A DNA stretch of 33,801 nt from Acidobacteriota bacterium (GTDB lineage Bacteria; Acidobacteriota; Vicinamibacteria; Vicinamibacterales; UBA8438), in contig PAUN01000064.1 in assembly GCA_002712885.1 (NCBI GenBank), positions 55,452-89,252 of the forward strand. Direction: 5' to 3'. The translations under genes were made by a program, and so were the position numbers. Shown in pieces: positions 4,891 to 33,378 of this stretch (its first letter is position 1; each line of letters opens with the position of its first letter). The notes under the pieces were generated by a model. That model saw nothing but the letters and a program-made list of their open reading frames with translations, was not told the DNA's origin and did not search any database.

Positions 4891-5143
4891 CGAAAGGCCT
4901 CATCGAGACCTTGATATTCGCATGGGTCGATTGCCGACGGGTCGGTCGTGCTGTTTTCTGGCTGCGGCCGTCCTGCCGACGGCGACGCCGGCGCGTGGTC
5001 AGACCGGGGTTTACGCCACGCCGGCGAGCAGATACCATTGAGTCCCAGCGGAGCGAATGCAGCGCCACGTTCACTGCGGGCTGCGAGCCGAGGCCGATGT
5101 CGCCTCGAGCGAGGAAGGGACGACTCTCGGGAGAGTGACGCCA

Positions 5144-7558
5144 ATGACGGCCAGACGGATCGTGGCGGGGGTCGGAATCACCCTGCTTGTCGGCGTCTCG
5201 GGTCTGCTTAGCCACGCCCAGACGCCACCGTCGAGCGGCGCGACCCAACGTGCCCTCCTCGACCAGTATTGTGTCGCCTGCCACAACGATAGCACCCGAC
5301 AGGCTGGGCTGACCCTCCAGACCATCGATGCCGGGCACGTGGGCCAGGTCGCCGACGAGGTCGAGGCGTGGGAAAAGGTGGCGCGCAAGTTGCGGGCCCG
5401 TGCGATGCCGCCTCCTGGGCGGCCACGGCCAGACGATGCGGCCTACGAGGCGGTGGCTTTATCGCTCGAAGCCGCGCTCGACGCGGCGTCCGCCGCCGCA
5501 CCGAATCCAGGCCAGCCCCCGATTCATCGGCTGAACCGGGTCGAGTATCGCAACGCGATTCGCGATCTGCTGGCGCTGGAGCTTGATGAGCGTGAATTGC
5601 TGCCCCCGGACGAGTCCGGCTACGGTTTCGACAACATCGCCGACATACTCGCCGTGTCGCCGGTGCTGCTCGACCGCTACATGGTGGCGGCCGAGAAGAT
5701 CAGTCAACTGGCGCTGGGTGATCCATCGATACGTCCGGCGGTCGAGATACACACTGTCCCCTACACGCTCTGGCAGGACGGTCGGATGAGCGAGCAGCTG
5801 CCGTTCGGGTCTCGAGGCGGTCTGGCCGTGCGACACCACTTCCCGCTGGACGGCGAGTATGTCATCAAGCTGACCCTGCAGCGAGCCTACGGGAACCATA
5901 TTCGTGGACTCGGCGAGGCGAACGACATTGAGCTCCGGCTGGACCGACAGCGCATCCAGCAGTTTACGGTGGGCGGAGACGGTGAGCGTGCACCTTGGGA
6001 TGCCGTGTCGAGACCGACATTCTACGAACAGACGGCCGACGAGGGGCTAGAAATACGCCTTGAGGTGAACGCGGGCACCCGAGTCATCAGTGCGGCATTT
6101 CTTGACAGAGGAGCGGTGGTCGAAGGGGTGCTCGAACCGCGTCCCGCCGTCTCCAGCCTAGCGTATGCGCGCGACCGCAACGCCGCCATGGCCCTCGAGA
6201 GCATCACCATCAGCGGGCCGTTCAACGCGCGTACGCCGGACAAGACACCAAGCCGTGACCGAGTCTTCGTGTGCTATCCGGCGGCGGCGGCGCCAGAGGC
6301 GGACGTCGAGGCGTGCGCCGGGGAGATTCTTTCCAGCCTTGCCCGCCGAGCGTTCCGGCGACCGGTTGCTCAGACCGACGTCGAGCCGCTGCTGTCGCTG
6401 TTTCGCGAGGGACGCGATGAGGGCGGTTTCGAGACTGGCATCCAGTTCGCGCTGCGCGGGGTGTTGATCGACCCCGAGTTCCTGTTCAGGGTAGAGCGCG
6501 ACCCGGCTGGTGTAGCGCCTGGTGCGGCGTTCGCGCTCAGCGACGTGGAACTGGCCTCGCGGCTGTCGTTCTTTTTGTGGAGCACCATCCCGGACGACGA
6601 GTTGCTCGAGGTGGCTGAGCGTGGCGACCTCAGAGACCGGACCACGTTGGAGGCGCAGGTGTCGCGTATGTTGGCCGACCCACGGTCGGACGCGCTCATC
6701 GAGAACTTCTTCGGGCAGTGGCTTCTGTTACGCAATATGAGCGCGGCGTCGCCCGACCCGGATGCCTTCCTCGACTTCGACGAGAACCTCCGCGAAGCGA
6801 TGGCGCGGGAGACGGCGCTCTTCGTCGAGAGTCAGATCCGAGACGACCGTGGCGCGTTGGATCTGTTGCGCGCAGACTACACCTATCTGAACGAGCGGCT
6901 CGCCCGCCACTACGGCATTCCCCATGTGTATGGGAATCACTTCCGCCGGGTGCCGGTGGATGGTGCTCGCGGGGGCTTGCTGGGGCAGGGGAGCATTCTG
7001 ACCGTGACGTCCTACCCCAATCGGACGTCTCCGACAAAACGTGGGCTCTGGGTGCTCGAGAATCTGCTGGGGTCGCCGCCACCGCCACCGCCGCCGGACG
7101 TCCCTGGGTTGCCCGACGCGGACCATGGCGATACCGGGCGCTCGCTGTCGATGCGTGAGCGGATGGAAGTGCACCGCACCAGTCCGGTCTGTGCGAGTTG
7201 TCACGTATTGATGGACCCGCTTGGCTTTTCGCTTGAGAACTTCGACGGCATCGGGGCCTGGCGAACTGACGAGGACGGCGCGCCGATCGACGCTTGGAGC
7301 GCGCTGCCCGACGGTACGAGTTTCGAAGGGCCGTCCGGTCTGCGGGATTTGTTGCTCGACCAGGGGGAGCGCTTCGCCGAGACGGTCACCGAGAAGCTCC
7401 TGACGTATGCGCTCGGCCGAGGCGTGGAGTACTACGATGGACCGGCCGTTCGCGCTATCACCGCGGGTGCGGCTGTGAACGAGTACCGTTGGTCGTCGCT
7501 CATTGTCGGCATCATTGAAAGCACGCCGTTTCAGATGAGGAGATCGCGCGAGCCATGA
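5144..7558 (+). CDS. DUF1587/DUF1592/DUF1588/DUF1595/DUF1585 multidomain secreted cytochrome c-like protein (module A)
   Basis: Signal peptide MTARRIVAGVGITLLVGVSGLLSHAQ; heme motif CVACH (5270-5284); 'HRLNRVEYRNAIRDLLALE'; 'SRLSFFLWSTIPDDELL'; 'PPPPPPPDVPGLPD'; second heme motif CASCH (7190-7204) 'CASCHVLMDPLGFSLENFD'. Confidence 0.92.
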   Translation: MTARRIVAGVGITLLVGVSGLLSHAQTPPSSGATQRALLDQYCVACHNDSTRQAGLTLQTIDAGHVGQVADEVEAWEKVARKLRARAMPPPGRPRPDDAAYEAVALSLEAALDAASAAAPNPGQPPIHRLNRVEYRNAIRDLLALELDERELLPPDESGYGFDNIADILAVSPVLLDRYMVAAEKISQLALGDPSIRPAVEIHTVPYTLWQDGRMSEQLPFGSRGGLAVRHHFPLDGEYVIKLTLQRAYGNHIRGLGEANDIELRLDRQRIQQFTVGGDGERAPWDAVSRPTFYEQTADEGLEIRLEVNAGTRVISAAFLDRGAVVEGVLEPRPAVSSLAYARDRNAAMALESITISGPFNARTPDKTPSRDRVFVCYPAAAAPEADVEACAGEILSSLARRAFRRPVAQTDVEPLLSLFREGRDEGGFETGIQFALRGVLIDPEFLFRVERDPAGVAPGAAFALSDVELASRLSFFLWSTIPDDELLEVAERGDLRDRTTLEAQVSRMLADPRSDALIENFFGQWLLLRNMSAASPDPDAFLDFDENLREAMARETALFVESQIRDDRGALDLLRADYTYLNERLARHYGIPHVYGNHFRRVPVDGARGGLLGQGSILTVTSYPNRTSPTKRGLWVLENLLGSPPPPPPPDVPGLPDADHGDTGRSLSMRERMEVHRTSPVCASCHVLMDPLGFSLENFDGIGAWRTDEDGAPIDAWSALPDGTSFEGPSGLRDLLLDQGERFAETVTEKLLTYALGRGVEYYDGPAVRAITAGAAVNEYRWSSLIVGIIESTPFQMRRSREP

Positions 7559-8907
7559 TTGTCACCAGAAAATACCTCCCGCGTCGGACGTTCCTCCGGG
7601 GTCTCGGTGTCACGCTGGCCCTCCCGATGCTGGACAGCATGGTGCCGGCGTTTGGCGGCGCGCAGATCCGTGCGGCCGAAGCGGTGCGCCGTCTCGGGGT
7701 CGTCTACGTGCCGAACGGCATGTTTATGCCGAACTGGACCCCCGAGGTCGAGGGTGGCCCACTCGAGATCACGCAGACGCTCCAGCCGCTGGCGCGGTTC
7801 AAGGACCGGATGCTGATGGTCAGCGGGCTTTGCAGCGAGGAGGGCATCGCGCGTCCCGGCGAGGGCGCCGGCGACCATGCCCGGGCGGCCGGCGCATTCC
7901 TGACCGGCGTCCATCCGAAGAAGACCGAGGGCCACGATATCAGGGCCGGCGTCTCGATGGACCAGATCGCCGCCCGGGTGCTGGGACAGGAGACTCAGCT
8001 CGCCTCGCTCGAGCTCTCGCTCGAATCGGCGGAACGGGCCGGGTCGTGTGATCCGGGCTATAGCTGCGCCTATGCCAACACGCTGTGCTGGAGCAGTGCC
8101 ACCACCCCGTTGCCGATGGCGAGCGACCCGCGCGCGGTGTTTGAACGGTTGTTCGGCACCACCGGCACCAACGACCCGGCCGCCTGGCTACAGGCGCGAC
8201 AGCACGATCGCAGTCTGCTCGATATGGTCACGGCGAAAGTGGCTCGGTTGAGCGGCGAGCTCGGTCCTCGCGATCGGGTCAAGCTGAACGAGTATCTCGA
8301 AGCGGTGCGCGACGTCGAGCGGCGTATCCAGATGGCCGAGCGGCAGACCACGCGCGAGCTCCCGGCGATGGATCAACCGGTCGGTGTGCCCGATAAGTTC
8401 GAGGAACACGCCAAGCTCATGTTCGATCTCCAAGTGCTGGCCTATCAGGCCGACCTGACTCGGGTTATCACCTTCATGATGGGGCATGAGACCAGCAACC
8501 GGGCCTATCCCGAGATCGGGGTGCCGGATGCGCACCACGCCTTGTCGCACCACGGGGGCGACAAGATACTGATCGAGCGGCTCAAGAAAGTAGACAGCCA
8601 CCTGACCGCGATGTTCGCGCACTACGTGGATCGGTTGGCGTCGACGCCTGACGGCAACGGCACGTTGCTCGATTCCGTGATGGTTCTCTATGGCAGCGGC
8701 CTGAGCGATGGCAATCGGCATGACCACCACGATCTGCCGGCATTGCTCGTCGGTGGCGGTGCCGGCCAGTTGTCCGGCGGGCGCCACATGCGGGTGGCCA
8801 AAGACACACCCAACACGAACCTATTCCTCGCCATGCTCGACAAGCTCGGTGTTGCGGTCGAGACCATGGGCGACAGCAACGGCCGGCTCGACACGCTGTC
8901 GGTCTGA
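7555..8907 (+). CDS. DUF1552 domain-containing protein with Tat signal (module A)
   Basis: Twin-arginine leader 'LPRRTFLRGLGVTLALPMLDSMVPAF'; 'RLGVVYVPNGMFMPNWTP'; overlaps the upstream DUF1592 gene by ATGA; highly similar to ORF 20562-21920. Confidence 0.93.
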   Translation: MIVTRKYLPRRTFLRGLGVTLALPMLDSMVPAFGGAQIRAAEAVRRLGVVYVPNGMFMPNWTPEVEGGPLEITQTLQPLARFKDRMLMVSGLCSEEGIARPGEGAGDHARAAGAFLTGVHPKKTEGHDIRAGVSMDQIAARVLGQETQLASLELSLESAERAGSCDPGYSCAYANTLCWSSATTPLPMASDPRAVFERLFGTTGTNDPAAWLQARQHDRSLLDMVTAKVARLSGELGPRDRVKLNEYLEAVRDVERRIQMAERQTTRELPAMDQPVGVPDKFEEHAKLMFDLQVLAYQADLTRVITFMMGHETSNRAYPEIGVPDAHHALSHHGGDKILIERLKKVDSHLTAMFAHYVDRLASTPDGNGTLLDSVMVLYGSGLSDGNRHDHHDLPALLVGGGAGQLSGGRHMRVAKDTPNTNLFLAMLDKLGVAVETMGDSNGRLDTLSV

Positions 8908-8914
8908 CCACGCG

Positions 8915-10477
8915 ATGGCACTCGACATGAGCGCGTCTATCCCGGTCCAGACGGGCCCCAGCGTCGGTCGATTGGCGACCGTGGCCCCGACGACTTGGAC
9001 CGGGCCTGCTTGTGCCGCGCGGCCCTTCACGCCCGCCGGCATGACCGCCGCTGCTACCGTTCTCCTGACTCTGACCATCGGTGCGTCGTCGGTTCAGGCG
9101 GCGGAGGACCATCCGCTGGTGGACGCCGTGGAACGACAGGACGGTCGCGCGGTGCGGGCTCTGCTGTCGCAGTCCGTCGACGTGAACGCGCCGCAGCCAG
9201 ACGGCGCCACGGCATTGCACTGGGCCGCCCACTGGAACGACGTCGAGACGGCCGCGCTGCTGATCGACGCGGGCGCCGAGGTCAACGCGGAGAACGAGCT
9301 GGGGGCCACGCCGTTGTCGCTGGCGGCGCTCAATGCCAGTGCTGAGATGGGGGCCGCGCTGCTGCGGGCCGGGGCCGACGCGAACACGTCGAAACCCAGT
9401 GGTGAGTCCGTACTGATGACCGCGGCCAGGACGGGCAGCGCCGATCTTGTCCGCGCATTGCTCGCGGCCGGCGCCGACCTCCAGACGACGGGACACTTTC
9501 TGCGGCAGACACCGTTGATGTGGTCAGCCTCGGAGGGGCATGCCCGTATCGCGCACCTGCTGCTAGAGGCCGGCGCGCCGGTCGACGTGCGGTCGCAGCA
9601 TGGCACGACCGCATTGCTGCTGGCTGCGCGCGCTGGTGACGTGGAGACCGCAAGGGCGTTGCTGGATGCCGGGGCGGACGTGAATGCGGCCGAGCCCTTG
9701 TTGCCCTTTGATGCCCGTATCGACGTCGAAGAGGCGCAGACGTCCGGTCGCAGTCCGCTGCTTATCGCCGCCGCCAGTCAGGTGGCCACCAGTGGCTGGG
9801 AGTATGGGCTCGAGGTGAAACCGAGCACGCACGAGACGCTCGCGATGTTCCTGCTGGCGCGGGGCGCCGACCCGAACGTGCCGGACAGTATCGGGAGGAC
9901 CGCGCTGCATGCGGCGGTCGAGACGGGCAAGGTTGGACTGGTCAAGGCGCTGCTGGCGGCTAGCGCCGATCCCAACGCCAGGTTGATCGAGGCGCCGTTC
10001 GTGTTGAAGGGCGACTTTGTGTCGTACGGGCGCTTTGTTGGCGCCACGCCGCTGTGGCTGGCGGCGGCGGCCCGGGTCCCTCAGGTCGAGATCCTGCGAG
10101 CGCTCGTAGACGCGGGCGGGGACCCGGAGTTGACCGCCGATGACGGCACCACGCCACTGATGGCGGCGGTCGGCATGGTGCAGAACGAAGCGCGTCAGGC
10201 CGACGAGAGTGAGGCCTTAGTGCTGGTGAGGTTGCTCGTCGAGCGAGACATCAACCTCGACGCCGTCGACCGACGCGGTCGAACCGCCGTTCACGGCGCG
10301 GCCCGTTTAGCCAGGAATGACTTGATTGCATTGCTGGCCGAGAATGGGGCGCAAGTGGGCATCGCCGACACCCGCGGGCAGACGCCCCTCGATGTCGGCA
10401 CCGTCTCCAGACCCCTGCATCCCGACACGGCTGCGTTGCTGCGACGTCTCGGTGGCGAGACCCCGGTTCGCCGCTAG
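8915..10477 (+). CDS. Secreted ankyrin-repeat protein (module A)
   Basis: Multiple ANK repeats ('DGATALHWAAHWNDVETAALLIDAGAEVNAENELGATPLSLAALN'); signal-like segment from MTAAATVLLTLTIGASSVQA (alternative start 9041); starts 8 nt after the DUF1552 stop. The ORF-track start at 8708 overlaps DUF1552 and is unlikely. Confidence 0.88.
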   Translation: MALDMSASIPVQTGPSVGRLATVAPTTWTGPACAARPFTPAGMTAAATVLLTLTIGASSVQAAEDHPLVDAVERQDGRAVRALLSQSVDVNAPQPDGATALHWAAHWNDVETAALLIDAGAEVNAENELGATPLSLAALNASAEMGAALLRAGADANTSKPSGESVLMTAARTGSADLVRALLAAGADLQTTGHFLRQTPLMWSASEGHARIAHLLLEAGAPVDVRSQHGTTALLLAARAGDVETARALLDAGADVNAAEPLLPFDARIDVEEAQTSGRSPLLIAAASQVATSGWEYGLEVKPSTHETLAMFLLARGADPNVPDSIGRTALHAAVETGKVGLVKALLAASADPNARLIEAPFVLKGDFVSYGRFVGATPLWLAAAARVPQVEILRALVDAGGDPELTADDGTTPLMAAVGMVQNEARQADESEALVLVRLLVERDINLDAVDRRGRTAVHGAARLARNDLIALLAENGAQVGIADTRGQTPLDVGTVSRPLHPDTAALLRRLGGETPVRR

Positions 10478-10606: not shown

Positions 10607-12406
10607 TCACTCAGGGAGCGCGAACACGAACAAGTTATTGCCGGTACTTGGCTGTAGTTCTGGGGTCATCCGTAAGTTGATGCCGGCTCCGGTGCCGGTG
10701 GCCACTGCGACATATTGACGACCGTTGACCGCGAACGACACGGGGTAGCCGGCCACGGGTGACCCGAGGTTGATTTCCCAGAGGATGTCACCGGTCTCCT
10801 GGTCGAAGGCCCGGAATCGTCCGTTGGCGTCGCCACCAAACAGGAGGCCACCGCCGGTGGCCACCAATGACATCGTCGCCGCCCGCTGTTCATAGAGCCA
10901 GGTCGTCGTACCAGTTTCTACTGAGATGGCGTGCACGGTGCCCAGCGCCTCGGTGCCCGGCGCCAGTTGGTGCCGCGCGGCCAAGGCGTAGATCGCCAGC
11001 GGGCGTTGTCCACCCGCCGTCAGTGCCAGCTCCCGCTCGCCGCGGACGTTCTGGGTCGAGAGCATCCGGGCGCAGGTATTGCGAAGGGGAAAATACATCG
11101 TATTCGTCAGTGGGCTGTAGGCGCCGGCCTCCCAGTCCTTACCGCCGGCCCAGGTCGGACAGGCGAGCACTTCCTGACCCAGCCCAGTGAACACCACCTC
11201 CGCGTTCTCTGTCACCGTGCCCGTCGCGCCGTCGATGTTCGTGATGACATTCTGTGGCACGGTCGGAGTGGCCCAGAGAAACTCGCCCGTCTCGCGGTCC
11301 AGGGTATAGACAATGCCAGTCTTGCCCGGGATCCCGGTCACGACCTTGCGGACCTCACCCGCGCGCAGGTTCGGGTTGATCCAACTCACAGCGCTGGCAT
11401 CCGGGGCGACCGCGGTGTCGACCAGCATCCGCTCGAACGGGTGGTCCAGGTCCCAATGGTCGTTCAGGTGCTGGTAGTACCACGTGATGTCGCCGGTGTC
11501 GACGTCCAGGGCGAGCGTCGAGTTGTGATACAGGTGCGTGTTCTCGATCCCACCAAGTAAGAACTTGGGCGCCGGTGAGGTGACCGACGTGCCCTGATAG
11601 ATCAGACGGAGCTCAGGGTCGTAGCTGGGTGGCATCCAGGTGCCGACGTGTATCCGTTGCTCGAACGGGACCCCGCCCCAGGTCTCGTCGCCCGGTTCTC
11701 CGGGGGCCGGCACAGTGCGCCGTCGCCACACTTCTTCACCCGTGCGGGCGTCGTGGGCCACGATGACACACGACTCGGGTCCTCCCGCGGGCCGGCAGCT
11801 TCGTCCAGAGATCATCTTGCCGTCGGCGATGATCGGACCGGAGCTGTGGCCGGCTGGCGTGACCCTGTAGTCGAAAATCTGGGTCTCCCACGCCACCTCG
11901 CCGGTGGTGGCGTCGAGCGCGAACGCATAGTTGTCGTCGCTGGTATTGACAATGAAATGGTCGTAGATGGCAATGTTTCGGTTGTTCCGAGCGTTACCAC
12001 CCACGTAGTCGTAGACGTCGTCCGGCAGGTCACGGAGATACTCCCACTTCAGGTCTCCCGTCACCGCGTCGATCGCCTGGATGGCATCGCTCGAGTTCGG
12101 CATGTACAACACGCCGTCGTAGGCCAGCGGCGTGCCCTCCATGCTGCCGGTGCGCAGCGCCCGCGTCCACGCCATGCGTAGTGTGCCCACATTTGCCCGT
12201 GTGATCTGGTCCAGCGGGCTGTACCCCCACCCGTCCAGCGTTCTGCGCCACATCAGCCAATCGTTGGGCGACGGGTCCGCCAGCATGGCGTCCGTCACGG
12301 GCCTGAAATCGTCGGTCGATTGGGCGTGAACCGTCAGCGGGTCGGACTGGAGGACGGCGAGACACAGAGCCACGATCGGCAGTGACGCAAGGCGGTATGC
12401 ACACAT
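10607..12406 (-). CDS. PQQ-dependent alcohol dehydrogenase-like protein
   Basis: Signal peptide MCAYRLASLPIVALCLAVLQSDPLTVHAQ; 'DWLMWRRTLDGWGYSPLDQITRANVGTLRMAWTRAL'; 'DVDTGDITWYYQHLNDHWDLDHPFERMLVD'; propeller blades 'DxxTGxxLW'. Confidence 0.92.
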   Translation of the reverse strand: MCAYRLASLPIVALCLAVLQSDPLTVHAQSTDDFRPVTDAMLADPSPNDWLMWRRTLDGWGYSPLDQITRANVGTLRMAWTRALRTGSMEGTPLAYDGVLYMPNSSDAIQAIDAVTGDLKWEYLRDLPDDVYDYVGGNARNNRNIAIYDHFIVNTSDDNYAFALDATTGEVAWETQIFDYRVTPAGHSSGPIIADGKMISGRSCRPAGGPESCVIVAHDARTGEEVWRRRTVPAPGEPGDETWGGVPFEQRIHVGTWMPPSYDPELRLIYQGTSVTSPAPKFLLGGIENTHLYHNSTLALDVDTGDITWYYQHLNDHWDLDHPFERMLVDTAVAPDASAVSWINPNLRAGEVRKVVTGIPGKTGIVYTLDRETGEFLWATPTVPQNVITNIDGATGTVTENAEVVFTGLGQEVLACPTWAGGKDWEAGAYSPLTNTMYFPLRNTCARMLSTQNVRGERELALTAGGQRPLAIYALAARHQLAPGTEALGTVHAISVETGTTTWLYEQRAATMSLVATGGGLLFGGDANGRFRAFDQETGDILWEINLGSPVAGYPVSFAVNGRQYVAVATGTGAGINLRMTPELQPSTGNNLFVFALPE

Positions 12407-16488: not shown

Positions 16489-16669
16489 TGCGCGGGCGGT
16501 CTTGTCGGGGTGATGCCGCGCGACCACGCCATCCGCCGTCGTGGTTGGCGTTGAACCGGCGGCCGCGGCGCGTTAAGCTAGGGGCCTATTCTCAGTGTGT
16601 GTCAGGGTTCGCCGTGCGTCGGGGGGCGGTGACCGGTCCGTTGCGAAAGGGCGATTTCGAGGGATCGTG

Positions 16670-18160
16670 ATGCGTGACAACCGCGAAATAGCGTTCGGAT
16701 GTGGGCTACTCCTGCTGGCGATGGCCACCGGGGTCTCGGCGGCGCAGTCGGAGAACGCGCTGGTTGCGGCCGCCAAGGCCCAAGATCATGCTGCGGTCAC
16801 GGCTCTGGTCGCCGGGCATGAGAACGTAAATGTGTCACAGCCGGATGGTGCGACGGCGCTGCACTGGGCGAGCTACTGGGATGCGCTGGACACCGCGCTG
16901 GTGCTGCTCGACGCGGGGGCCGAGGCGAATGCGGTGAACGACTATGGCGTTACACCGCTGGCGCTGGCGTGCGATAACGGGTCGGCGGCGATGGTCACAC
17001 GTCTCTTGCAGGGAGGCGCGGATCCCAATGTCGTCCGGTCGACGGGGGAGACCCCCGTCATGACCTGCGCGAGGACCGGGAACCTGGCGGCGGTTGACGC
17101 GCTGTTGACCTACGGTGCCGAGCTAAGCGGCACCGACACCTTGTACGGCCAGACCGCCTTGATGTGGGCGGCAGGGGAAGGACATGCCGAGGTCGCGCGT
17201 CTCCTCGTGACGCGTGGCGCCGACGTGCAGGCTCGAACGAGTGGTGGGTATACGGCGCTGCTGATCGCGGCGCGGGAAGATGAGCGCGATCTGGCCGGGC
17301 TATTGCTCGACGCCGGGGCCGACGTGAACGCATCCGCGCCGGACGGCACCACGGCGCTGCTGGTGGCGACCGTGCGCGGCCACGCGGATCTAGCGATTCT
17401 GCTGCTCGAGCGAGGCGCGAATCCCAACTCCGCCGAGACGGGCTACACCGCGCTGCACTGGGCGGCTGGGTCCTGGCATACGGAACTGACCGGGTTACGA
17501 GGTATCGAGACCGGTCGCGACGATGAGTGGCGGTCCATGAATGAGGTCCGCGTCGGCAAAGTTCGGCTGGTGGAGGCGTTACTGGCGCATGGTGCTGATC
17601 CGCAGGCACGTCTTGTCAGTCCTCCGCCGCAGTTCGGGTTTGCCAGCGGGCGATTTCGCGTGAGTCTCATCGGCGCGACGCCGTTCTTATTGGCGGCGAT
17701 GGATGGGAATCTGGATGTGATGCGAGCATTGGCCGCGGCCGGCGCCGATCCTGCGATCGGGACGGAAGAGCAGACGACGCCGGTGATGGTGGCGGCCGGG
17801 CTCGGGCAGGTGCCGGCCGAAACGCGGGTCCAGGAGCGAGATTCTCTAGCCGCGGTTCGACTGGCGCTGGAACTAGGGGCTGACGTCAACGACGTGAATC
17901 AGATTGGACGCACGGCGCTGCATGGCGCCGCGCACATTCGATCGGATGCCATCGTTCAGTTGCTCGTCGAGCACGGCGCACGGATCAACGCCGCCGATGT
18001 GCGAGGGATCACACCGCTGATGATCGCGGAGGGTGGAGGACACATTCTGCTCCCTGGCCTTGGCGGAGGCACCACGGCGGATTTGCTCCGGGCCCTGGGC
18101 GGCAACGAAACGGCGCCGCCGAACTCTACGGAACTCTACAGCCAGGGAGCCATCAGATAA
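16670..18160 (+). CDS. Secreted ankyrin-repeat protein (module B)
   Basis: MRDNREIAFGCGLLLLAMATGVSAAQ signal; many ANK repeats; same inter-repeat organisation as 8915-10477. Stop TAA is 2 nt before the next GTG. Confidence 0.9.
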   Translation: MRDNREIAFGCGLLLLAMATGVSAAQSENALVAAAKAQDHAAVTALVAGHENVNVSQPDGATALHWASYWDALDTALVLLDAGAEANAVNDYGVTPLALACDNGSAAMVTRLLQGGADPNVVRSTGETPVMTCARTGNLAAVDALLTYGAELSGTDTLYGQTALMWAAGEGHAEVARLLVTRGADVQARTSGGYTALLIAAREDERDLAGLLLDAGADVNASAPDGTTALLVATVRGHADLAILLLERGANPNSAETGYTALHWAAGSWHTELTGLRGIETGRDDEWRSMNEVRVGKVRLVEALLAHGADPQARLVSPPPQFGFASGRFRVSLIGATPFLLAAMDGNLDVMRALAAAGADPAIGTEEQTTPVMVAAGLGQVPAETRVQERDSLAAVRLALELGADVNDVNQIGRTALHGAAHIRSDAIVQLLVEHGARINAADVRGITPLMIAEGGGHILLPGLGGGTTADLLRALGGNETAPPNSTELYSQGAIR

Positions 18161-18162
18161 CC

Positions 18163-20565
18163 GTGGATTCCTTCACCCCGGCGCAGGCGACGGGACGGGG
18201 GGCGATCGCGATGCGGTGTCTCGCGGTCGGCGTGGCCCTGTCGATCATGCCCACCGTCGCCAGCGCCAAGCAGGCGCCAACCGACGCCGCCATCTTTCGA
18301 ACCGTGCTCGATCGCTACTGCGTGGCCTGTCACAACGAGCGTCTCCTGCGGGGCGCGCTATCCCTCGACGACCTGCGGTCCGACCAGGTTGGGGACCATG
18401 CGGAGGTGTGGGAAAAGGTCCTGCAGAAGCTCCGGACGCAATCGATGCCGCCTCCGGGCCGGCCACGTCCAGGGGAGACGGAGTACGGGCGGCTGTCGGC
18501 CTGGCTGGAAGCCGAGCTCGATTTGGCGGCCGCCGCCACGCCAAATCCTGGACGACCGACTATTCATCGGCTCAATCGACTGGAGTACACGAACGCCATT
18601 CGCGACCTGCTCGGTCTCGAGATCGACGGCGAGGCCCTGTTGCCCGGTGACGACCTCGCCTACGGATTTGACAACAACGCCGACATGCTGACGGTGGCGC
18701 CCGGGCTGCTGGAACGTTACATGTCGGCGGCACGCAAGATTGCCCGTCTGGCGGTGGAAGACCCCTCAGTTGAACCGGACATCGCACGACACGCCATGTC
18801 CACGCTCGACGTGCAGGATGACCGCATGAGTGAAGACCTGCCCTTCGGGTCGAGGGGCGGGATCGCGATTCGCCATCACTTTCCCCTCGACGCGGAGTAT
18901 GTCGTCAGCCTGAGCCTGGCGGGCAACACACGAGAGCCGCAGGAAATCGACGTCCGGCTCGATGGGGCCAGGCTGGCGCTGTTACCGGTTGGGCGCTGGC
19001 CGGCCGAGAGCGGACGTGAGGTTGCGCCGAGGGAGGCAGACGGCACTCTGAGTGTCAGGTTCCCGGCGACGGCCGGTACACACGTGGTCGGGGTCTCGTT
19101 CGTCAAGCGAACGTCGGTCGTCGAAGGCGTCGCTCCGGCCCGGTTACCGGTGTGGACGTTCGGCACTGGTCGTGGATTCGTCGAGCGGATGGCGCTCGAC
19201 AGTGTGGACATCGGAGGGCCGTACTCACCAGACACCATCGGTGGCGGGGCGGGGGGAGCGGAGGACATCGACCCACGGCCGCGTGTGTTCAGCTGTCGAC
19301 CGACGAGTTCGGCGGACGAAGGTCCTTGCGCTGACGAGATTCTTGGGACGTTGGCGCGACGCGCGTATCGGCGGCCGGTCTCGGACGACGATGTTCGGCT
19401 GTTGCGCGAGTTTTTTGCCGTGGGCCGACGTGGCGGGAGCTTCGAGGCCGGCATCCAGCGTGCGCTCGAGATGATGTTGGTCGACCCGGAGTTCTTGTTC
19501 CGTCTCGAGCGCGATCCGGCGGGGACAGCGCCGTCCACGGCCTATCGCCTCAGCGACGTCGAGCTGGCCTCACGACTGTCGTTCTTTCTCTGGAGCAGTA
19601 TCCCGGATGACGAACTGCTGGCGGTGGCCGAAGCGGGGCGTCTCGGGCAGCCTGACGTGCTGGAGGCGCAGGTACGCCGCATGCTCGCCGACGAACGGTC
19701 GACAGTGCTGATGTCGAGTTTTGGGGGACAATGGCTGCATCTGCGCCGGATGCGCACCGTGACGCCGGAGGTCAACGCCTTTCCCGGTTTCGACGACAAC
19801 CTGCGCGACGCGCTGGTGCGTGAGACGGAGTTGTTTCTTGAGGATCAGTTTCGTGACGACCGCAGCGTGGTCGATCTGCTCACCGCCGACTACACGTTCG
19901 TCAACGAGCGACTGGCACGACACTACGGCATCGAGGGTGTCTACGGAAGCCGATTCCGACGGGTGACCTGGACCGACGAGAAGCGCCGGGGACTGTTGGG
20001 GCACGGGAGCATTCTGACCGTCACCTCCTTGGCGACCCGCACGTCTCCCGTTGTCAGAGGCAAGTGGGTGTTGGAGAACATTCTCGGGACCCCGCCGCCG
20101 CCCCCCCCTCCCGACGTGCCGGAGTTGCCAGACCGCGTCGAGAACGGGGTGGTGCAGTCGATGCGGACCCGAATGGAGGCGCATCGCGCGAATCCGGTCT
20201 GCGCGAGCTGTCATTCCCGAATGGACCCACTGGGGTTCGCGCTCGAGCATTTCGACGCGGTCGGGAAGTGGCGGGACACGGAGGCCGAGACCCCGATCGA
20301 TGCGTCGGGCGTGTTGCCAGACGGGATCGCCTTCGACGGGCTCCCGGCCCTGCGCGGAGTGTTGTTCGAGCGACGTGGCGAATTCGTGGAGACGGTCGCC
20401 GACAAGCTGCTGACGTACGCGTTGGGCCGTGGTATCGAGTATTTCGATCGACCGGCGATCCGTGCGATTGTGCGCGAAGCGGAGCGTGACGACTACCGCT
20501 GGTCGTCGCTCATTCTCGCCCTGGTTCGAAGCCAGCCGTTCCAGATGAGGAGATCCGACTCATGA
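18163..20565 (+). CDS. DUF1587/DUF1592/DUF1588/DUF1595/DUF1585 multidomain secreted cytochrome c-like protein (module B)
   Basis: CVACH (18319-18333) and CASCH (20200-20214) heme motifs; 'HRLNRLEYTNAIRDLLGLE'; 'SRLSFFLWSSIPDDELL'; 'PPPPPPPDVPELPD'; alternative ATG start at 18211 (MRCLAVGVALSIMPTVASA). Confidence 0.92.
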   Translation: MDSFTPAQATGRGAIAMRCLAVGVALSIMPTVASAKQAPTDAAIFRTVLDRYCVACHNERLLRGALSLDDLRSDQVGDHAEVWEKVLQKLRTQSMPPPGRPRPGETEYGRLSAWLEAELDLAAAATPNPGRPTIHRLNRLEYTNAIRDLLGLEIDGEALLPGDDLAYGFDNNADMLTVAPGLLERYMSAARKIARLAVEDPSVEPDIARHAMSTLDVQDDRMSEDLPFGSRGGIAIRHHFPLDAEYVVSLSLAGNTREPQEIDVRLDGARLALLPVGRWPAESGREVAPREADGTLSVRFPATAGTHVVGVSFVKRTSVVEGVAPARLPVWTFGTGRGFVERMALDSVDIGGPYSPDTIGGGAGGAEDIDPRPRVFSCRPTSSADEGPCADEILGTLARRAYRRPVSDDDVRLLREFFAVGRRGGSFEAGIQRALEMMLVDPEFLFRLERDPAGTAPSTAYRLSDVELASRLSFFLWSSIPDDELLAVAEAGRLGQPDVLEAQVRRMLADERSTVLMSSFGGQWLHLRRMRTVTPEVNAFPGFDDNLRDALVRETELFLEDQFRDDRSVVDLLTADYTFVNERLARHYGIEGVYGSRFRRVTWTDEKRRGLLGHGSILTVTSLATRTSPVVRGKWVLENILGTPPPPPPPDVPELPDRVENGVVQSMRTRMEAHRANPVCASCHSRMDPLGFALEHFDAVGKWRDTEAETPIDASGVLPDGIAFDGLPALRGVLFERRGEFVETVADKLLTYALGRGIEYFDRPAIRAIVREAERDDYRWSSLILALVRSQPFQMRRSDS

Positions 20566-21920
20566 TCATCACCAAGAAGGCGCTACCCCGGCGCACAGTC
20601 CTGCGTGGTCTCGGGACCGCAATGGCGTTGCCGTTGCTGGACAGTATGGTGCCCGCATTCACGGCTCTGGCTCAGACCGAGGCACGACCGAAGCCTCGAC
20701 TTGGCGTCGTGTATGTGCCACATGGGGCGGTCATGAACAACTGGACCCCCGCGACCCAAGGCACCGGGTTCGAGTTCACCACAATACTCCAGCCCTTATC
20801 CGCGCATCGTGAGCACCTCACTGTGCTGTCCGGACTCGACCACGCGCCAGGGGCGCAGATGCCCGGCGACCCGGCCGGTGGGCACGGTCGCATTACGGGC
20901 GCGTTCTTGACGGGCGTCCACGCCAAACCGACCGAGGGCGCCGACTTCGAGGCGGGCCGGTCGATGGATCAGATTGCGGCCGCGACGTTGGGCCAGCACA
21001 CCCAGCTGGGGTCGCTCGAAGTGGGTATCGGATTGCCGGACTTCGCCGGCGCCTGCGACGCAGGATTCAGTTGCGCGTATATCAGCACGCTCAGTTGGAG
21101 CACACCCACCACGCCGCTCCCTATGGAGAGCAGCCCCCGCGCGGTCTTCGAACGGTTGTTCGGCGACGGCACCAGCACGGACCCGGCGGCTCGACAGGAG
21201 CGGATGACAAAGGACCGGAGCATCCTCGATGCCGTGACCGAGAAGTTGTCACGGCTGCAGGACGGCCTCGGCGCGTCGGACCGGGCCAAACTGACGGACT
21301 ATCTGACGGCGGTCCGCGACATCGAGCGTCGCATCGCACGAGCCGAAGCGGAGGTGGACCGCGAGTTGCCGCTGGTCGACCGGCCGGCCGCCGGGACGCC
21401 AACGTCGTTCGAAGAGCACGTCAAGGTGTTGTTCGATCTGCAAGTCTTGGCCTATCAGACCGACCTGACGCGGGTCATCTCGTTCCTAATGACGCCGGAG
21501 CTCACGGCCCAGACTTACCCGCAGATCGGCGTGCCAGACCCGCACCATGCGTTGTCACATCACGAGAACAATCCAGAGAGCCTGGCGAAGTTGACCAAGC
21601 TCGGCGGGTACCACACCGGGTTGTTTGCCTACTATCTCGACAAGCTGCGCGCCACCCCGGACGGTGACGGCTCGCTCCTGGACCAGGTGATGGTCCTGTA
21701 CGGGAGCGGGATGAGTAACAGCAACCTCCACAATATTCAAGACCTGCCGCTTCTCCTGGCCGGCGGCGGCGCGGGTCAGCTTCGTGCCGGACACCACGTC
21801 CGATACGCGGAGGGCACGCCGCTGACGAATTTATATCTGTCACTGCTGGACAAGCTGGATGTTCCGGTCGAGCGCTTCGGCGACAGCACGGGCCGCCTGC
21901 AGCAGCTAAGCGATCTCTAG
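20562..21920 (+). CDS. DUF1552 domain-containing protein with Tat signal (module B)
   Basis: 'LPRRTVLRGLGTAMALPLLDSMVPAF' leader; ATGA overlap with upstream gene; long conserved blocks shared with 7555-8907. Confidence 0.93.
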   Translation: MIITKKALPRRTVLRGLGTAMALPLLDSMVPAFTALAQTEARPKPRLGVVYVPHGAVMNNWTPATQGTGFEFTTILQPLSAHREHLTVLSGLDHAPGAQMPGDPAGGHGRITGAFLTGVHAKPTEGADFEAGRSMDQIAAATLGQHTQLGSLEVGIGLPDFAGACDAGFSCAYISTLSWSTPTTPLPMESSPRAVFERLFGDGTSTDPAARQERMTKDRSILDAVTEKLSRLQDGLGASDRAKLTDYLTAVRDIERRIARAEAEVDRELPLVDRPAAGTPTSFEEHVKVLFDLQVLAYQTDLTRVISFLMTPELTAQTYPQIGVPDPHHALSHHENNPESLAKLTKLGGYHTGLFAYYLDKLRATPDGDGSLLDQVMVLYGSGMSNSNLHNIQDLPLLLAGGGAGQLRAGHHVRYAEGTPLTNLYLSLLDKLDVPVERFGDSTGRLQQLSDL

Positions 21921-22382: not shown

Positions 22383-23291
22383 ATGCTCAGTAGACGATCG
22401 CTTCTCCTAACCCCCGTGGCGGCGACGCTGGCCCGCGCGGTCAATGCCCAGTCCGCGGCGTCCGGAAAAATGCTGCTGGCGATGCACCAGAACACTACGA
22501 GAGCCGCCGGTTTTCGCGCTTCGATGGAAGGGTGGGCGAGGGCCGGGATCCAATATGTGGAACTCGGTGCCCCACAACTCTCCGCGTTCTTGGAGACCGA
22601 GACGGTGCCGACAGCCCGACGTCTCCTCGGGGATCTCGGTCTGACGCCGGTATCCGCCGCGGTCGTACTGCCGGACATCTGGCTCCCTGGACCAGCCCGG
22701 GCCGATTCACTGGAGGCCTGGAGGCGGGGCTGCGAACAGATGGCGGAGATGGGCCTCCAGAAGGTCTACTCGCCCTCGATCACCAACCGGCCTCTCACGG
22801 CCGACGACTTCGCGGCCACGCCGGACGCTATCTTCGAGGCCGGGGAGATCGCCAAGGCCTTCGACTTGACCGCCATGATCGAGTTCATCCGCACGTCGAC
22901 GCACCTGGCCACGCTGACGTCAGCGCTTCAGATGATTCGCGCCGCCGGCCACCCGAATGTGCGCCCGATGCTCGACTTCTTCCACTTCTGGTCCGGGCTC
23001 AGCAAGTTCGAAGATCTCGACCTGCTGGACCGCGGCGAGCTCGCGCACGCGCACTTTCAAGACGTGCTCGACACCCCTCGGGAACTGATCAACAACGACT
23101 CGCGACTGATTCCCGGCGACGGCATAGCCCCCGTCGTGCGCATTCTCCAGAAGCTGGCCGAGAAGGAGTACGACGGCGCCCTGTCCGTCGAGCTGTTCCG
23201 GTCAGAATGGGTGCGAGGCGACCCGTTCGCGGTAGCCTCAGAAATACGCCCGAAGTGCGAAGCCGTCATGCGGCAGGCCCAGGTCCTGTAG
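22383..23291 (+). CDS. Sugar phosphate isomerase/epimerase-like TIM-barrel protein, exported
   Basis: MLSRRSLLLTPVAATLARAVNAQ Tat-like leader; 'LTPVSAAVVLPDIWLPG', 'VRPMLDFFHFWSGLSKFEDLDLLDRGELAHAHFQDVLDTPRELINNDSRLIPGDGIAPVVRILQKLAEKEYDGALSVELF'. The ORF-track start at 22167 is probably too early. Confidence 0.88.
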   Translation: MLSRRSLLLTPVAATLARAVNAQSAASGKMLLAMHQNTTRAAGFRASMEGWARAGIQYVELGAPQLSAFLETETVPTARRLLGDLGLTPVSAAVVLPDIWLPGPARADSLEAWRRGCEQMAEMGLQKVYSPSITNRPLTADDFAATPDAIFEAGEIAKAFDLTAMIEFIRTSTHLATLTSALQMIRAAGHPNVRPMLDFFHFWSGLSKFEDLDLLDRGELAHAHFQDVLDTPRELINNDSRLIPGDGIAPVVRILQKLAEKEYDGALSVELFRSEWVRGDPFAVASEIRPKCEAVMRQAQVL

Positions 23292-23311
23292 GCACCCACG
23301 GCAATCGCGTG

Positions 23312-25525
23312 ATGACCCGTTCCTCGGCCATGTCGTTGGTCAGATACCTGACACTTCTGCTCATTTGCGTCTCGGCCCCGGTGGTCTCGGCCGATGAGGA
23401 CTTTGCTCGGTTCGTGAACCCGTTCGTGGGCACGGCCGGACACGGCCACACGTTTCCTGGCGCCACCGTGCCGTTCGGGATGGTCCAACTCTCCCCAGAC
23501 ACACGAACGCACGGCTGGGATGCCGCCTCCGGGTATCACGACTCCGATCGCGACATCATCGGATTCAGCCACACTCATCTCAGCGGAACCGGGGGCAATG
23601 ACTACGGCGATATCCTGTTGATGCCGACTGTCGATGACAGGCATCTCAATCCCGGCACGCGTGGACTACCCGACAGCGGCTATCGCTCCAGGTTCCTGAA
23701 GACTGAAGAAGCGGCGTCGCCTGGCTACTACCGCGTACGGTTGCAGGACTACGACGTGCTGGCCGAACTCACGGCCACCACGCGAGTCGGCGTGCACCGA
23801 TATACGTTTCCGGAGACGGGGGAGGCCCGCATCGTGCTGGATCTGCGGCATCGCCGTGGTGAGGCGTGGAGCCACGGGTCGCTCGACGTGGTGAGTTCCA
23901 CAGAAGTGCAAGGATATCGCGTCAGCCGCGGATGGGCGCAGGATCAGCCGGTCTTTTTCTACGCGGAATTCTCACAGCCGTTTACCTACGAGTTGATCGA
24001 TCTCGCGCGGCGCTCGCGCCAGAAGATGGCGGGGAATGACCTGCGCGGGTTGTTCTACTTCGGCCAGCGTCGTCAGGGGCGTCAGATACTCGTCAAGGTG
24101 GGGATTTCTGCCGTGAGTGTAGAGGCGGCGCGACACAATCTGCTGGCGGAGGTAGACCACTGGGACTTTGATCGGGTGCATCGCGAGGCCAGACAGAGCT
24201 GGAATGCGGAGCTGAACAAGATCGCGGTGGAGATGGGGGAGGGCGATGGTGACGACAACCGACGGATGACGGTGTTCTATACCGCTCTGTATCACACCAT
24301 GATCGCGCCCAACACATTCATGGATGTGGACCGGGGGTATCGAGGCATTGACGGTCGGAGGCATGTGGCTGAGAATTTCACCAACTACACCGTCTTCTCG
24401 CTCTGGGATACGTTTCGCGCGCTACACCCGCTGCTCACGATCACGCACCGCGAACTGACGGCCGATCTGGTCGAGACGTTGTTGAATCATTACCGCCACG
24501 GCGGGTCGTTACCCATGTGGGAGCTGTGGGGCAACTACACCGAGACCATGATCGGATATCCGGCCGCACCCGTCATTGTCGATGCCATTCTGAAGGGTAT
24601 CGAGGTAGACACGGCGACGGCATACGCCGCGGTGCGGCACAGCGCCATGCAGGACCATCGAGGGCTCGAAGCCTACAAGCGCCTCGGCTACGTGCCGTCC
24701 GATACCGATCCGGAGTCCGTGTCAAAGACCCTCGAGTATGCCTACGGTGATTGGGTCATCGCGCAGCTCGCGGCACATCTCGGCAAGCAGGTGGACTATC
24801 AGGACTTCTCGAAACGTGCCGAGTTCTATCGTAACGTCTTTGACCGCGAGACCGGGTTCATGCGTCCTCGAGAGACTACGGGTCGTTGGATGCCCGACTT
24901 CGACCCACTGAACAGCGCGCACCGCACGAACGGCTACACGGAGGGCAACGCGTGGCAGTACTCCTGGTTCGTGCCGCACGATGTGCCCGGTCTTGTCCAT
25001 CTGTTTGGCGGGCCCGACGCATTCGAACAGAAGTTGGACCGCTTGTTTACGCTCGACTCGGACGTCGCGGGCGCGCGCTCTGTGGATATTTCCGGCATGA
25101 TCGGGCAGTACGCACACGGGAACGAGCCATCGCACCACATCGCCTATCTCTACAACTACATCGGCAAGCCGCACAAGACGCAGGACCGGGTGCGGCAGAT
25201 CATGGACACTCTGTATGGTCTGGGCGCCGACGGCCTCAGCGGGAACGACGACTGTGGGCAGTTGTCGGCGTGGTTCGTGCTGAGTAGTCTGGGGCTGTAT
25301 CAACTGGCGCCAGGTGACGCGCAGTTCACGCTCGGGAGTCCGCTGGTGCGTGAGGCGGTCATTCAGCTCGAGAACGGCGGGACCTTCGTCATCCGGACCG
25401 ACGGCGACGTCGCGCGCGAGCATCGTGTGGCGCGGGTTCGATTGAACGGTCGCCAGGTGGATGGCCTCTCGATCGCCTACGCCGATCTGATGGCCGGCGG
25501 GGAACTGGTATTCGAATTGGAGTAG
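23312..25525 (+). CDS. GH92 family glycoside hydrolase (alpha-mannosidase-like), secreted
   Basis: 'FVNPFVGTAGHGHTFPGATVPFGMVQLSPDT', 'GFSHTHLSGTGGNDYGDILLMP', 'FSLWDTFRALHPLLTI', 'EGNAWQYSWFVPHDVPGL', 'GLSGNDDCGQLSAWFVLSSLGLYQLAPGDAQFTLGSP'. The ORF-track start at 22532 overlaps the upstream gene out of frame. Confidence 0.95.
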   Translation: MTRSSAMSLVRYLTLLLICVSAPVVSADEDFARFVNPFVGTAGHGHTFPGATVPFGMVQLSPDTRTHGWDAASGYHDSDRDIIGFSHTHLSGTGGNDYGDILLMPTVDDRHLNPGTRGLPDSGYRSRFLKTEEAASPGYYRVRLQDYDVLAELTATTRVGVHRYTFPETGEARIVLDLRHRRGEAWSHGSLDVVSSTEVQGYRVSRGWAQDQPVFFYAEFSQPFTYELIDLARRSRQKMAGNDLRGLFYFGQRRQGRQILVKVGISAVSVEAARHNLLAEVDHWDFDRVHREARQSWNAELNKIAVEMGEGDGDDNRRMTVFYTALYHTMIAPNTFMDVDRGYRGIDGRRHVAENFTNYTVFSLWDTFRALHPLLTITHRELTADLVETLLNHYRHGGSLPMWELWGNYTETMIGYPAAPVIVDAILKGIEVDTATAYAAVRHSAMQDHRGLEAYKRLGYVPSDTDPESVSKTLEYAYGDWVIAQLAAHLGKQVDYQDFSKRAEFYRNVFDRETGFMRPRETTGRWMPDFDPLNSAHRTNGYTEGNAWQYSWFVPHDVPGLVHLFGGPDAFEQKLDRLFTLDSDVAGARSVDISGMIGQYAHGNEPSHHIAYLYNYIGKPHKTQDRVRQIMDTLYGLGADGLSGNDDCGQLSAWFVLSSLGLYQLAPGDAQFTLGSPLVREAVIQLENGGTFVIRTDGDVAREHRVARVRLNGRQVDGLSIAYADLMAGGELVFELE

Positions 25526-29456: not shown

Positions 29457-29969
29457 CTAGGCGGCGAGCTTGGCGGCTAGGTACTTCAGGATGTCGCGGA
29501 CGGAGATGATGCCGGTGACCGTGCCGGCATCGTCGACGATCGGCAGATGTCGATAGCCCCCGACGTCCATACGCTGCAACGCGAAGGCGACCTTGGCGTC
29601 GACCGGGAGCGTCTCGGGAGCGGCCGTCATGAAGTCGGCAATGGGACGATCGCCCTGTGAGGCCGCGTCCGTACCCAGTTTCACCAACGCGTCACGCTCA
29701 CTGAAGACCCCGACCGGCTTGCCCGCGTCGGCCACGATCATGCATCCGATACGACGGTCGACCAGCATGCGCAGGACGTCGCGCACCGGCGTGTCAGGCG
29801 ATACGTGCACCGGCGCCTTCGGGTTCAGTACCCCGACGCGGTCCATGAGGAGGCTCCGCTCGACCGCAGTCGACGGCTCCGGGAGCGAGGCGTCGTTCAA
29901 CGGCTGACCGCAGGCGGCGCAGTCAATGACGCCATCGAGGTTGTCGCCGCCGCACGATGGACAGGTCAT
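29457..29969 (-). CDS. Zinc-ribbon plus tandem CBS domain protein
   Basis: N-terminal 'CPSCGGDNLDGVIDCAACG' zinc ribbon; two CBS units 'VHVSPDTPVRDVLRMLVDRRIGCMIVADAGKPVGVFSERDAL' and 'AAPETLPVDAKVAFALQRMDVGGYRHLPIVDDAGTVTGIISVRDIL'. Start overlaps the korB stop by 4 nt. Confidence 0.92.
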   Translation of the reverse strand: MTCPSCGGDNLDGVIDCAACGQPLNDASLPEPSTAVERSLLMDRVGVLNPKAPVHVSPDTPVRDVLRMLVDRRIGCMIVADAGKPVGVFSERDALVKLGTDAASQGDRPIADFMTAAPETLPVDAKVAFALQRMDVGGYRHLPIVDDAGTVTGIISVRDILKYLAAKLAA

Positions 29970-30985
29970 GACACCGTCCAGGTTTCTCCCGAGTTGATGA
30001 GCTTGCTCAAGTCACCGTCGCCACGCTCTTCCCGCGCGGCGTCGACCTGGGCGTTCAGTTGCTCATCGTAGCGTGGCGCATCCACCGCGCGGAAGATCCC
30101 GATCGGTTCGGGAAAACCGTTTTCGTGCCGAAATCGACTCAGGAGATACGCGAGGCTGGGTTCGGGCGCGTGCGCGTCGTGTATCAGCAGGTCGGCCTCG
30201 GTGATACCGTCGCCAAGCTCCACTACTTCAGGTTCCAATCCCTTCAGGCGGATCCCCTTCTGACCGTTCGCACCAAAGATCAGTGGTTGCCCGTGGACCA
30301 GTTCGATGGTGTTCTCTGCCCTGGTCTGACGGCCGGTGGCGTAGTCGAACGCCCCGTCGTTGAACACGTTGCAGTTCTGATACACCTCAACGAACGACGT
30401 GCCGCGGTGCTCGGCCGCCTGACGCAACACCCCTTCGAGGTGCTTGATGTGCGTGTCAATTGAACGGGCGACGAACGAGCCCTCACAACCGATGGCCAGC
30501 GACAAGGGGTGCAGCGGATTGTCGATGGCGCCCAGCGGTGACGTTTTGGTCTTCTTGCCCAGCGGAGACGTTGGGGAGTACTGACCCTTGGTCAACCCGT
30601 AGATGCGGTTGTTGAAGAGGATGATATTGATGTCCAGATTGCGACGGATGGCGTGCATCAGATGGTTCCCACCGATGCTCAAGCCATCGCCGTCGCCGGT
30701 GACGACCCAGACCATGAGGTCGGGACGGGCTACCTTCAACCCGGTGGCGAACGCCGGGGCGCGGCCGTGAATGCTGTGAATGCCATACGTGTTCATGTAG
30801 TACGGAAATCGGCTCGAACAGCCGATGCCGGAGATGAAGACAATCTTCTCGCGCGGCACCCCCAGCGAGGGGAGCATCTTCTTCATCTGCGCCAGAATGG
30901 AATAGTCGCCACAGCCGGGGCACCATCGCACGTCTTGATCGCTGGCGAAATCGGTGGCCTTCAATACGGGAAGTTCGGTCCTCAT
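29966..30985 (-). CDS. korB: 2-oxoacid:ferredoxin oxidoreductase subunit beta
   Basis: 'VRWCPGCGDYSILAQMKKMLPSLGVPREKIVFISGIGCSSRFPYYMNTYGIHSIHGRAPAFATGLKVARPDLMVWVVTGDGDGLSIGGNHLMHAIRRNLDINIILFNNRIYGLTKGQYSPTSPLGKKTKTSP' (TPP-binding GDG...NN). Confidence 0.96.
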   Translation of the reverse strand: MRTELPVLKATDFASDQDVRWCPGCGDYSILAQMKKMLPSLGVPREKIVFISGIGCSSRFPYYMNTYGIHSIHGRAPAFATGLKVARPDLMVWVVTGDGDGLSIGGNHLMHAIRRNLDINIILFNNRIYGLTKGQYSPTSPLGKKTKTSPLGAIDNPLHPLSLAIGCEGSFVARSIDTHIKHLEGVLRQAAEHRGTSFVEVYQNCNVFNDGAFDYATGRQTRAENTIELVHGQPLIFGANGQKGIRLKGLEPEVVELGDGITEADLLIHDAHAPEPSLAYLLSRFRHENGFPEPIGIFRAVDAPRYDEQLNAQVDAAREERGDGDLSKLINSGETWTVS

Positions 30986-31007
30986 CGAATGTCTTCTCTC
31001 GGTTACG

Positions 31008-32876: not shown

Positions 32877-32913
32877 GTGTGACTTGCGCCTTGCGTTGAG
32901 CAGCGTCGACGGT

Positions 32914-33378
32914 CTACGCGCCTTCGCGTGTGCCCGTCGCGTGGTGAGGAGTCGGTGGGAGGTTGTAGACGGTGGCCGGAAAATGGTCGACGAGGAAATG
33001 CAGAATGCTGTTGGCTTTGAGGAAGCCGGTCGGTCGCCCGTCCGAGTCGATGATCGGCAAGCGGCGATACCCACCCGTGGACATCTTCGCGATGGCGGTG
33101 GCGACGGTGTCATCCTCCGACAGCGCAACCGGATTCGCGGTCATCACCTGCTCGATGGCAACGTCGAGATCGGCGCCGTCGGCCAAGAGCGCCAGAGCGT
33201 CCCGTTCGGTGAAAATGCCCACCAACACGCCAGCCCGACAGATGAGCACCGCACCGCGCCCCTGGTCGTTCATACGCCGAAACGCCTCACGCACCGCCAC
33301 GTGCGGTTCGAGATTGATCGGGTGCCTGGAATAAAGGGGGGCGGCCCTGTCGGTGTCGAGATTAAAGAGAAAACCCAT
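32914..33378 (-). CDS. CBS-pair domain protein
   Basis: 'INLEPHVAVREAFRRMNDQGRGAVLICRAGVLVGIFTERDALALLADG', 'VMTANPVALSEDDTVATAIAKMSTGGYRRLPIIDSDGRPTGFLKANSILHFLVDHFP'. Start MGFLFNLDTDRAAP at complement 33376-33378. Confidence 0.9.
   Translation of the reverse strand: MGFLFNLDTDRAAPLYSRHPINLEPHVAVREAFRRMNDQGRGAVLICRAGVLVGIFTERDALALLADGADLDVAIEQVMTANPVALSEDDTVATAIAKMSTGGYRRLPIIDSDGRPTGFLKANSILHFLVDHFPATVYNLPPTPHHATGTREGA

Follow-up and report, generated by a model that had tools for sequence, protein, structure and literature searches.

The 33,801-nucleotide stretch of Vicinamibacterales DNA analysed here (the window; positions 55452-89252 of contig C71, PAUN01000064.1, in a draft genome of 3.83 Mb) carries two sets, modules A and B, of three genes encoding an ankyrin-repeat (ANK) protein, a DUF1592-type protein and a DUF1552 protein. 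Our sequence analysis indicates that this triad is an exported three-gene unit with di-haem, twin-arginine translocation (Tat) and ankyrin components, co-inherited, co-diverging and multiplied to about 20-40 versions per genome. The core DUF pair is known; the regular ankyrin partner and the paralogue repertoire are undescribed in the literature that we found. A Pfam profile search of the window confirmed the genes of both modules at the following positions:

16670..18160, plus strand: module B ANK protein, 496 amino acids, general secretory (Sec) signal peptide; Pfam Ank_2, E = 5.6e-61
18163..20565, plus strand: module B DUF1592-type protein; Pfam DUF1592/1588/1585/1587/1595 and PSCyt1
20562..21920, plus strand: module B DUF1552 (HXXSHH) protein; Pfam E = 7.8e-95; Tat signal RRTVLRG
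5057..7558, plus strand: module A DUF1592-type di-haem protein; Pfam; CVACH and CASCH
7555..8907, plus strand: module A DUF1552 protein; Pfam E = 2.3e-95
9041..10477, plus strand: module A ANK protein with signal peptide; Pfam Ank_2, E = 5.9e-57 on the full open reading frame (ORF)

As the initial annotation of this DNA had claimed, the same families occur twice with permuted order, being DUF1592, DUF1552, ANK in module A (5057-10477) and ANK, DUF1592, DUF1552 in module B. Coupling within module B is tight, with the ANK stop at 18160 followed by a GTG at 18163, a junction that the annotation had read correctly, and the DUF1592 and DUF1552 genes overlap by 4 nucleotides (ATGA) in both modules. 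The module B ANK ORF is open from a GTG at 16595, and a start at 16670 leads to a clean Sec signal peptide; the module A ANK ORF is open from 8708, with 9041 the likely start judging from the homologous N-terminus in the alignment. The two modules had been described as copies, and they are indeed paralogous triads; local tandem duplication of A into B is ruled out, the nearest relatives of both being orthologues in other genera. By its ANK, the closest named relative of module B is a Vicinamibacterales metagenome-assembled genome (MAG; 86% identity), and ANK comes first in all of the module's nearest relatives (L064-L069).

Modules A and B belong to a set of about 23 such triads in their own genome. 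DUF1588/DUF1552 pairs number 25 in this genome, of which 23 are canonical and 2 divergent. Its 102 Ank_2 matches are confined to 23 ORFs, and 22 of these adjoin a canonical DUF1592/DUF1552 pair (one, cut by a contig end, at 3.2 kb), compared to about 2 expected by chance, given that by our own arithmetic the regions up to 5 kb from a pair make up roughly 8% of the genome. The ANK gene is last in 13, divergent in 4, first in 4 (including the cut one) and convergent in 1. The pairless ANK, at the end of contig C44, and the ANK-less canonical pair, at the start of contig C5, have flanking sequences that are 98.4% identical over 1963 bases (L119, L120) and then differ; these ends may represent strain variants of a single locus, which part the ANK from its pair. 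The two divergent pairs (contigs C14, 1-9000, and C40, 243-9242) are 99.7% identical over 9 kb and lack an ANK, and are probably one locus on duplicate or strain-variant contigs of the draft.

The same pairing was seen in related genomes. Strong ANK matches numbered 21-45 per genome in all 13 family genomes searched. Three near-complete genomes, each from a different related genus, held 92 full-length family ANKs, of which 84 lay within 7 kb of a DUF1552 gene, and 83 of their 101 DUF1552 genes had an ANK; one-to-one matching over four genomes paired 103 of 113 ANKs. These pairing counts (84/92; 103/113) rule out chance adjacency of the ANK and the DUF pair. ANK relatives in named genomes were in triads in 21 of 25 cases. 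Family ANKs without a DUF pair are L204-L210, with L207 and L209 beside a pyrroloquinoline quinone (PQQ) dehydrogenase, L208 beside a TonB-dependent receptor and L210 beside a dicarboxylate symporter. Across the phylum Acidobacteriota, only 9 of 60 sampled genomes had DUF1552; all seven full-length family ANKs outside the own genome stood beside it, and nine DUF1552 genes in four genomes (G009, G014, G024, G050) had no full-length ANK, a pattern indicating that the pair does without ANK more readily than the ANK family does without the pair. One genome of this sample (G010, 2.4 Mb) has 46 partial ankyrin-profile matches and no DUF1552, a different, unrelated ankyrin expansion. Among 39 Verrucomicrobiota genomes, DUF1552 was found in the query genome only, on one short, probably misbinned contig, and Acidobacteriota-like triads on contigs of a Verrucomicrobiales MAG (L075) and an Acidimicrobiia MAG (L085) reflect misbinning or transfer.

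Divergence of the three proteins was strongly correlated. For 21 triads of the own genome, Mantel r was 0.795 for DUF1592-DUF1552, 0.776 for DUF1592-ANK and 0.613 for DUF1552-ANK (p = 1e-4 each), and the nearest neighbour was common to both members in 9, 13 and 9 of the 21, respectively (about 1 expected). The initial annotation had named, as the outcome that would speak against it, ankyrin partners unrelated to each other beside a co-diverging DUF pair. Over 101 triads from four genera, ANK instead correlated with DUF1592 (r = 0.784) and DUF1552 (r = 0.703), compared to 0.846 for the DUF pair and permutation maxima of 0.23-0.25. When only paralogues within genomes were considered (1281 pairs), r was 0.80 between the DUF proteins, 0.75 for DUF1592-ANK and 0.63 for DUF1552-ANK. 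At equal column numbers, the partial r was 0.46 for ANK and DUF1592 given DUF1552, and 0.22 for ANK and DUF1552 given DUF1592; as variability is spread differently over the two proteins, this is no more than suggestive of ANK tracking DUF1592 more than DUF1552. In 95 of the 101 triads the gene arrangement was that of the closest relative, and in 94 of these 95 the ANK was within the five nearest. Because the ANK has stayed with the pair in ~90% of cases, in all four orientations and among paralogues that are old (about 50% identity in the own genome), we argue for selection, and the triad as a selected unit is well supported. Together, the near one-to-one pairing and the co-divergence with the DUF pair support the earlier proposal, which took the ankyrin protein for a functional component and not for a chance neighbour.

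The ANK protein is exported by prediction, a heuristic finding a signal peptide in 33 of 34 homologues. We aligned the nine repeats of the module B ANK, all in register, to the standard 33-residue frame and compared identity within and between orthologous groups. Repeat positions 1, 2, 3, 5, 13 and 14 were conserved within groups and most different between them (difference 0.41-0.47), compared to 0.22-0.24 for outer-helix positions 18, 21 and 25. Positions 2, 3, 5, 13 and 14 (and 33) are those randomised in designed ankyrin binders, and these canonical binding positions ranked above the other variable positions (p = 0.001 without position 33 and 0.007 with it, from rounded values). The residues that tell triads apart thus concentrate on the canonical ankyrin binding surface. 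Three ANKs carry an extra C-terminal CxxCH (cytochrome-c-like) segment (C8, L093:3214-5610; L076:7929-9872; L146), a fusion that, as read from sequence, is a direct link between ANK and haem chemistry. A comparison with PADLOC matched no system to the set, with ankyrin-repeat matches in the ANK only and none for either DUF protein, and gave no support for an anti-phage defence system.

The DUF1592 protein is by its sequence an exported di-haem protein, with a predicted carbohydrate-binding module (CBM)-like domain. Pfam PSD3, PSD5, PSD4, PSCyt3 and PSD2 follow in this order above cut-offs in both modules, and the module B protein reads PSCyt1 haem (CVACH), PSD3, CBM-like beta-sandwich, PSD5, PSD4, PSCyt3 haem (CASCH), PSD2, which puts one haem-c attachment site near each end. 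These CxxCH sites in PSCyt1 and PSCyt3 are present in both modules and nearly all homologues (two in 82 of 86, one in the remaining four). A sequence search of the PDB gave only a borderline cytochrome c555 match (E = 0.076). Foldseek comparison of the AlphaFold2 model of the module B protein (predicted template modelling score, pTM, 0.85) returned CBM35/CBM36/CBM6-like sugar-binding domains (best E = 8e-4, probability about 1.00), which modest alignment lengths and predicted secondary structure would place on the beta-sandwich at residues ~186-340. This segment is the least conserved part of the protein (36% identity compared to 46-58% elsewhere), and in variability-matched columns it tracks best both ANK (0.56 compared to 0.30-0.41 for other segments) and DUF1552 (0.58 compared to 0.32-0.45). 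Since the ANK binding positions and the CBM-like segment are the most group-specific or variable parts, recognition surfaces, and not frameworks, seem to diversify in parallel. The annotation had also suggested paralogous systems with different substrates; the divergence stands, while the substrate part would follow only indirectly, from the diversified CBM-like domain and ANK binding face.

The DUF1552 protein has a full-length PF07586 match with the HXXSHH motif (H329, S332 and H333 invariant), and 34 of 35 homologues have a Tat signal. A PDB sequence search gave no significant match. The AlphaFold2 model of the module B protein (pTM 0.82) is predicted to have the alkaline-phosphatase/sulfatase superfamily fold, at moderate TM-score; its top Foldseek matches were carrageenan sulfatases, other S1 sulfatases and LtaS (E down to 2e-6, probability 1.00), with TM-scores of 0.3-0.46 and about 10% identity. 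Alignment invariants are H108, D136, Q137, C165, C171, H329, S332, H333, D374 and H390. The C/S-x-P-x-R formylglycine nucleophile motif is not conserved in this alignment, and we therefore do not class DUF1552 as a sulfatase. The protein resembles S1 sulfatases and LtaS in its model match but differs from them in its low TM-score and identity, in having no CxPxR and in its conserved residues.

Genes next to the triads were also compared. Seven of the 80 flanking genes match PF01011 and 10 match PQQ_2; with ~77 PF01011 genes in the own genome, ~1.8 would be expected among 80 on an estimate of ~3400 genes, so the neighbourhood of triads is enriched about 4-fold in PQQ dehydrogenase genes. Two of these ~77 PQQ-type quinoprotein dehydrogenase genes in 3.8 Mb lie in the window, at 58-1986 and 10607-12406 on the minus strand, and their number suggests a strikingly periplasmic oxidative metabolism.

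The reading we favour, held tentatively and at somewhat less than even confidence, is that the proteins of a triad together form a redox/hydrolase assembly, periplasmic or at the surface and dedicated to one substrate class, in which the ANK acts as cognate adaptor; activity, substrate and physical binding of the three proteins are what we infer. Each triad would encode one exported assembly, in the periplasm or at the outer surface. The finger-and-inner-helix face of the ANK solenoid would bind a triad-specific partner and so assemble or stabilise it, our best guess for this partner being the DUF1592 protein or a product held between both enzymes. The CBM-like module of DUF1592 would set the substrate, from which DUF1552, with an atypical active site, may remove or rearrange a substituent (a sulfate or phosphate ester, for example), and the two DUF1592 haems would pass electrons to, or take them from, the substrate or a quinoprotein dehydrogenase encoded nearby. 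On this view the paralogues could form a repertoire, with separate complexes for different glycans (sulfated or carrying other decorations) or for substrates of a similar kind. It is possible, although we hold it with more doubt, that these are a new class of modular envelope complexes in which a dedicated ankyrin adaptor sets the pairing or substrate specificity of di-haem CBM-bearing and sulfatase-fold proteins, in a parallel 20-40-member repertoire per genome; a single bacterium would then possess a whole library of enzyme sets with their matching adaptors.

Several points weigh against this adaptor reading. Linked genes co-diverge by shared inheritance without contact, so congruence proves durable linkage and not binding, and the co-divergence of ANK with DUF1592 beyond DUF1552 is just modest (partial r 0.46 compared to 0.22). 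Six triads are arranged differently from their closest relatives; their ANKs match poorly, and their DUF1552 matches are weaker as well. Many DUF1592/DUF1552 pairs elsewhere have no ANK, which is therefore not required for the role of the core pair. The substrate is suggested by the CBM-like fold alone, the structural PDB matches of DUF1592 are weak (one with E < 1e-3) and cover only part of the protein, and the catalysis of DUF1552 is uncertain given the missing CxPxR and TM-scores of just 0.3-0.46.

The main competing explanation, which we consider unlikely but by no means negligible, is that the ANK assists the haem enzyme in the periplasm as its chaperone or protector, in the way AnkB is reported to assist the catalase KatB, and does not act as a specificity adaptor of a glycan-processing complex. 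We know of no paralogue repertoire for AnkB-KatB or AnkB-CatB. In these systems, a periplasmic ankyrin-like protein is reported to be needed for full haem enzyme activity (references in PMC10294975), so that they resemble the triads in tying such a protein to a haem enzyme; their haem enzyme is a catalase and not DUF1592, and there is no sulfatase-fold partner. By signal peptide and gene linkage, the triad ANK is exported and always near a di-haem protein, and it follows DUF1592 more closely than DUF1552, all as a helper would. A general helper, however, would not require 23-40 versions in a genome that co-diverge and carry binding-face residues specific to their group, and DUF1592 elsewhere manages without ANK.

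A role of the triad in envelope stress or metal/haem handling, and not in substrate breakdown, seems distinctly less likely. It draws on the facts that substrate and catalytic residues have not been demonstrated and that PSCyt/PSD functions are unknown (PMC5615132), but the CBM-like fold, the sulfatase-like fold and the neighbouring quinoprotein dehydrogenases point to carbohydrate-type substrates, and Cbp2D, a DUF1587 protein that has been studied, functions in cellulose utilisation. We regard as improbable a neutral expansion in which duplication and transposition copy the three genes together, with linkage and congruence reflecting block copying and not shared function. Block duplication alone predicts co-divergence, and the triads are numerous and dispersed; yet the old paralogues have kept the ANK with the pair, in four orientations and mostly intact, most orthologous groups hold their arrangement across genera where neutral copies would decay or separate, and variation is concentrated on binding-type surfaces. 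The class of the own genome, Vicinamibacteria, is taken by us to be the Luteitaleia of the sponge study cited next. That the ANKs are eukaryotic-like effectors for host (sponge) interaction, beside DUF pairs by genomic accident or regional co-regulation, is very improbable: ankyrin proteins are abundant in Acidobacteriota associated with sponges (class Luteitaleia; 0.55% of coding genes) and were interpreted there as host-interaction proteins (PMC8163846), and some relatives come from MAG sets taken as sponge-derived by isolate names only, but nearly every family ANK pairs and co-diverges with a DUF pair in four orientations, a CxxCH haem site is fused to some of them, MAGs with seawater-suggesting names (FRAM_RAS) contain relatives too, and all ANK matches to NCBIfam effector models were far below cut-offs, as expected of generic ankyrin similarity.

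Compared to described systems, the triad adds the adaptor candidate. No description joining any two of ankyrin, DUF1592 and DUF1552 was found in the literature searched, which did not cover subscription literature. In Planctomycetes and Verrucomicrobia, PSCyt3 genes usually stand beside one family of unknown genes, with function unknown (PMC5615132), and the PSCyt3/PSD and DUF1552 pairs there are likewise exported and in many copies per genome, with CBMs sometimes present in PSCyt genes (PMC5615132). The sources consulted mention no ankyrin partner for those pairs; here, an exported co-diverging ANK is the regular third gene, in 20-40 versions. The nearest studied protein is Cbp2D, of the Cbp2D/Cbp2E system of Cellvibrio japonicus; it is important for growth on insoluble cellulose and likewise combines DUF1587 with a CBM and a c-type cytochrome domain (PMC8981238, PMC12542752). 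This system differs in having the haem domain X183, CBM2 and another architecture, and no DUF1552 or ankyrin partner is reported for it.

DUF1592 and DUF1552 are abundant and uncharacterised, and a regular third protein with a known kind of binding surface offers a handle for purification and tests. The pairing also bears on how symbiont genomes are read, where the ankyrin content of sponge-associated Acidobacteriota of class Luteitaleia is counted as evidence of host interaction (PMC8163846), yet here nearly all full-length ANKs of the family are in cytochrome modules. If the adaptor model were true, these genomes would be natural libraries of matched ankyrin-partner pairs.

Two other loci were noted in the window. 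A GH92 glycosidase gene lies directly 3′ of module B (22532-25525), and two genes for a 2-oxoacid:ferredoxin oxidoreductase lie on the minus strand close to the window end (29966-33128).
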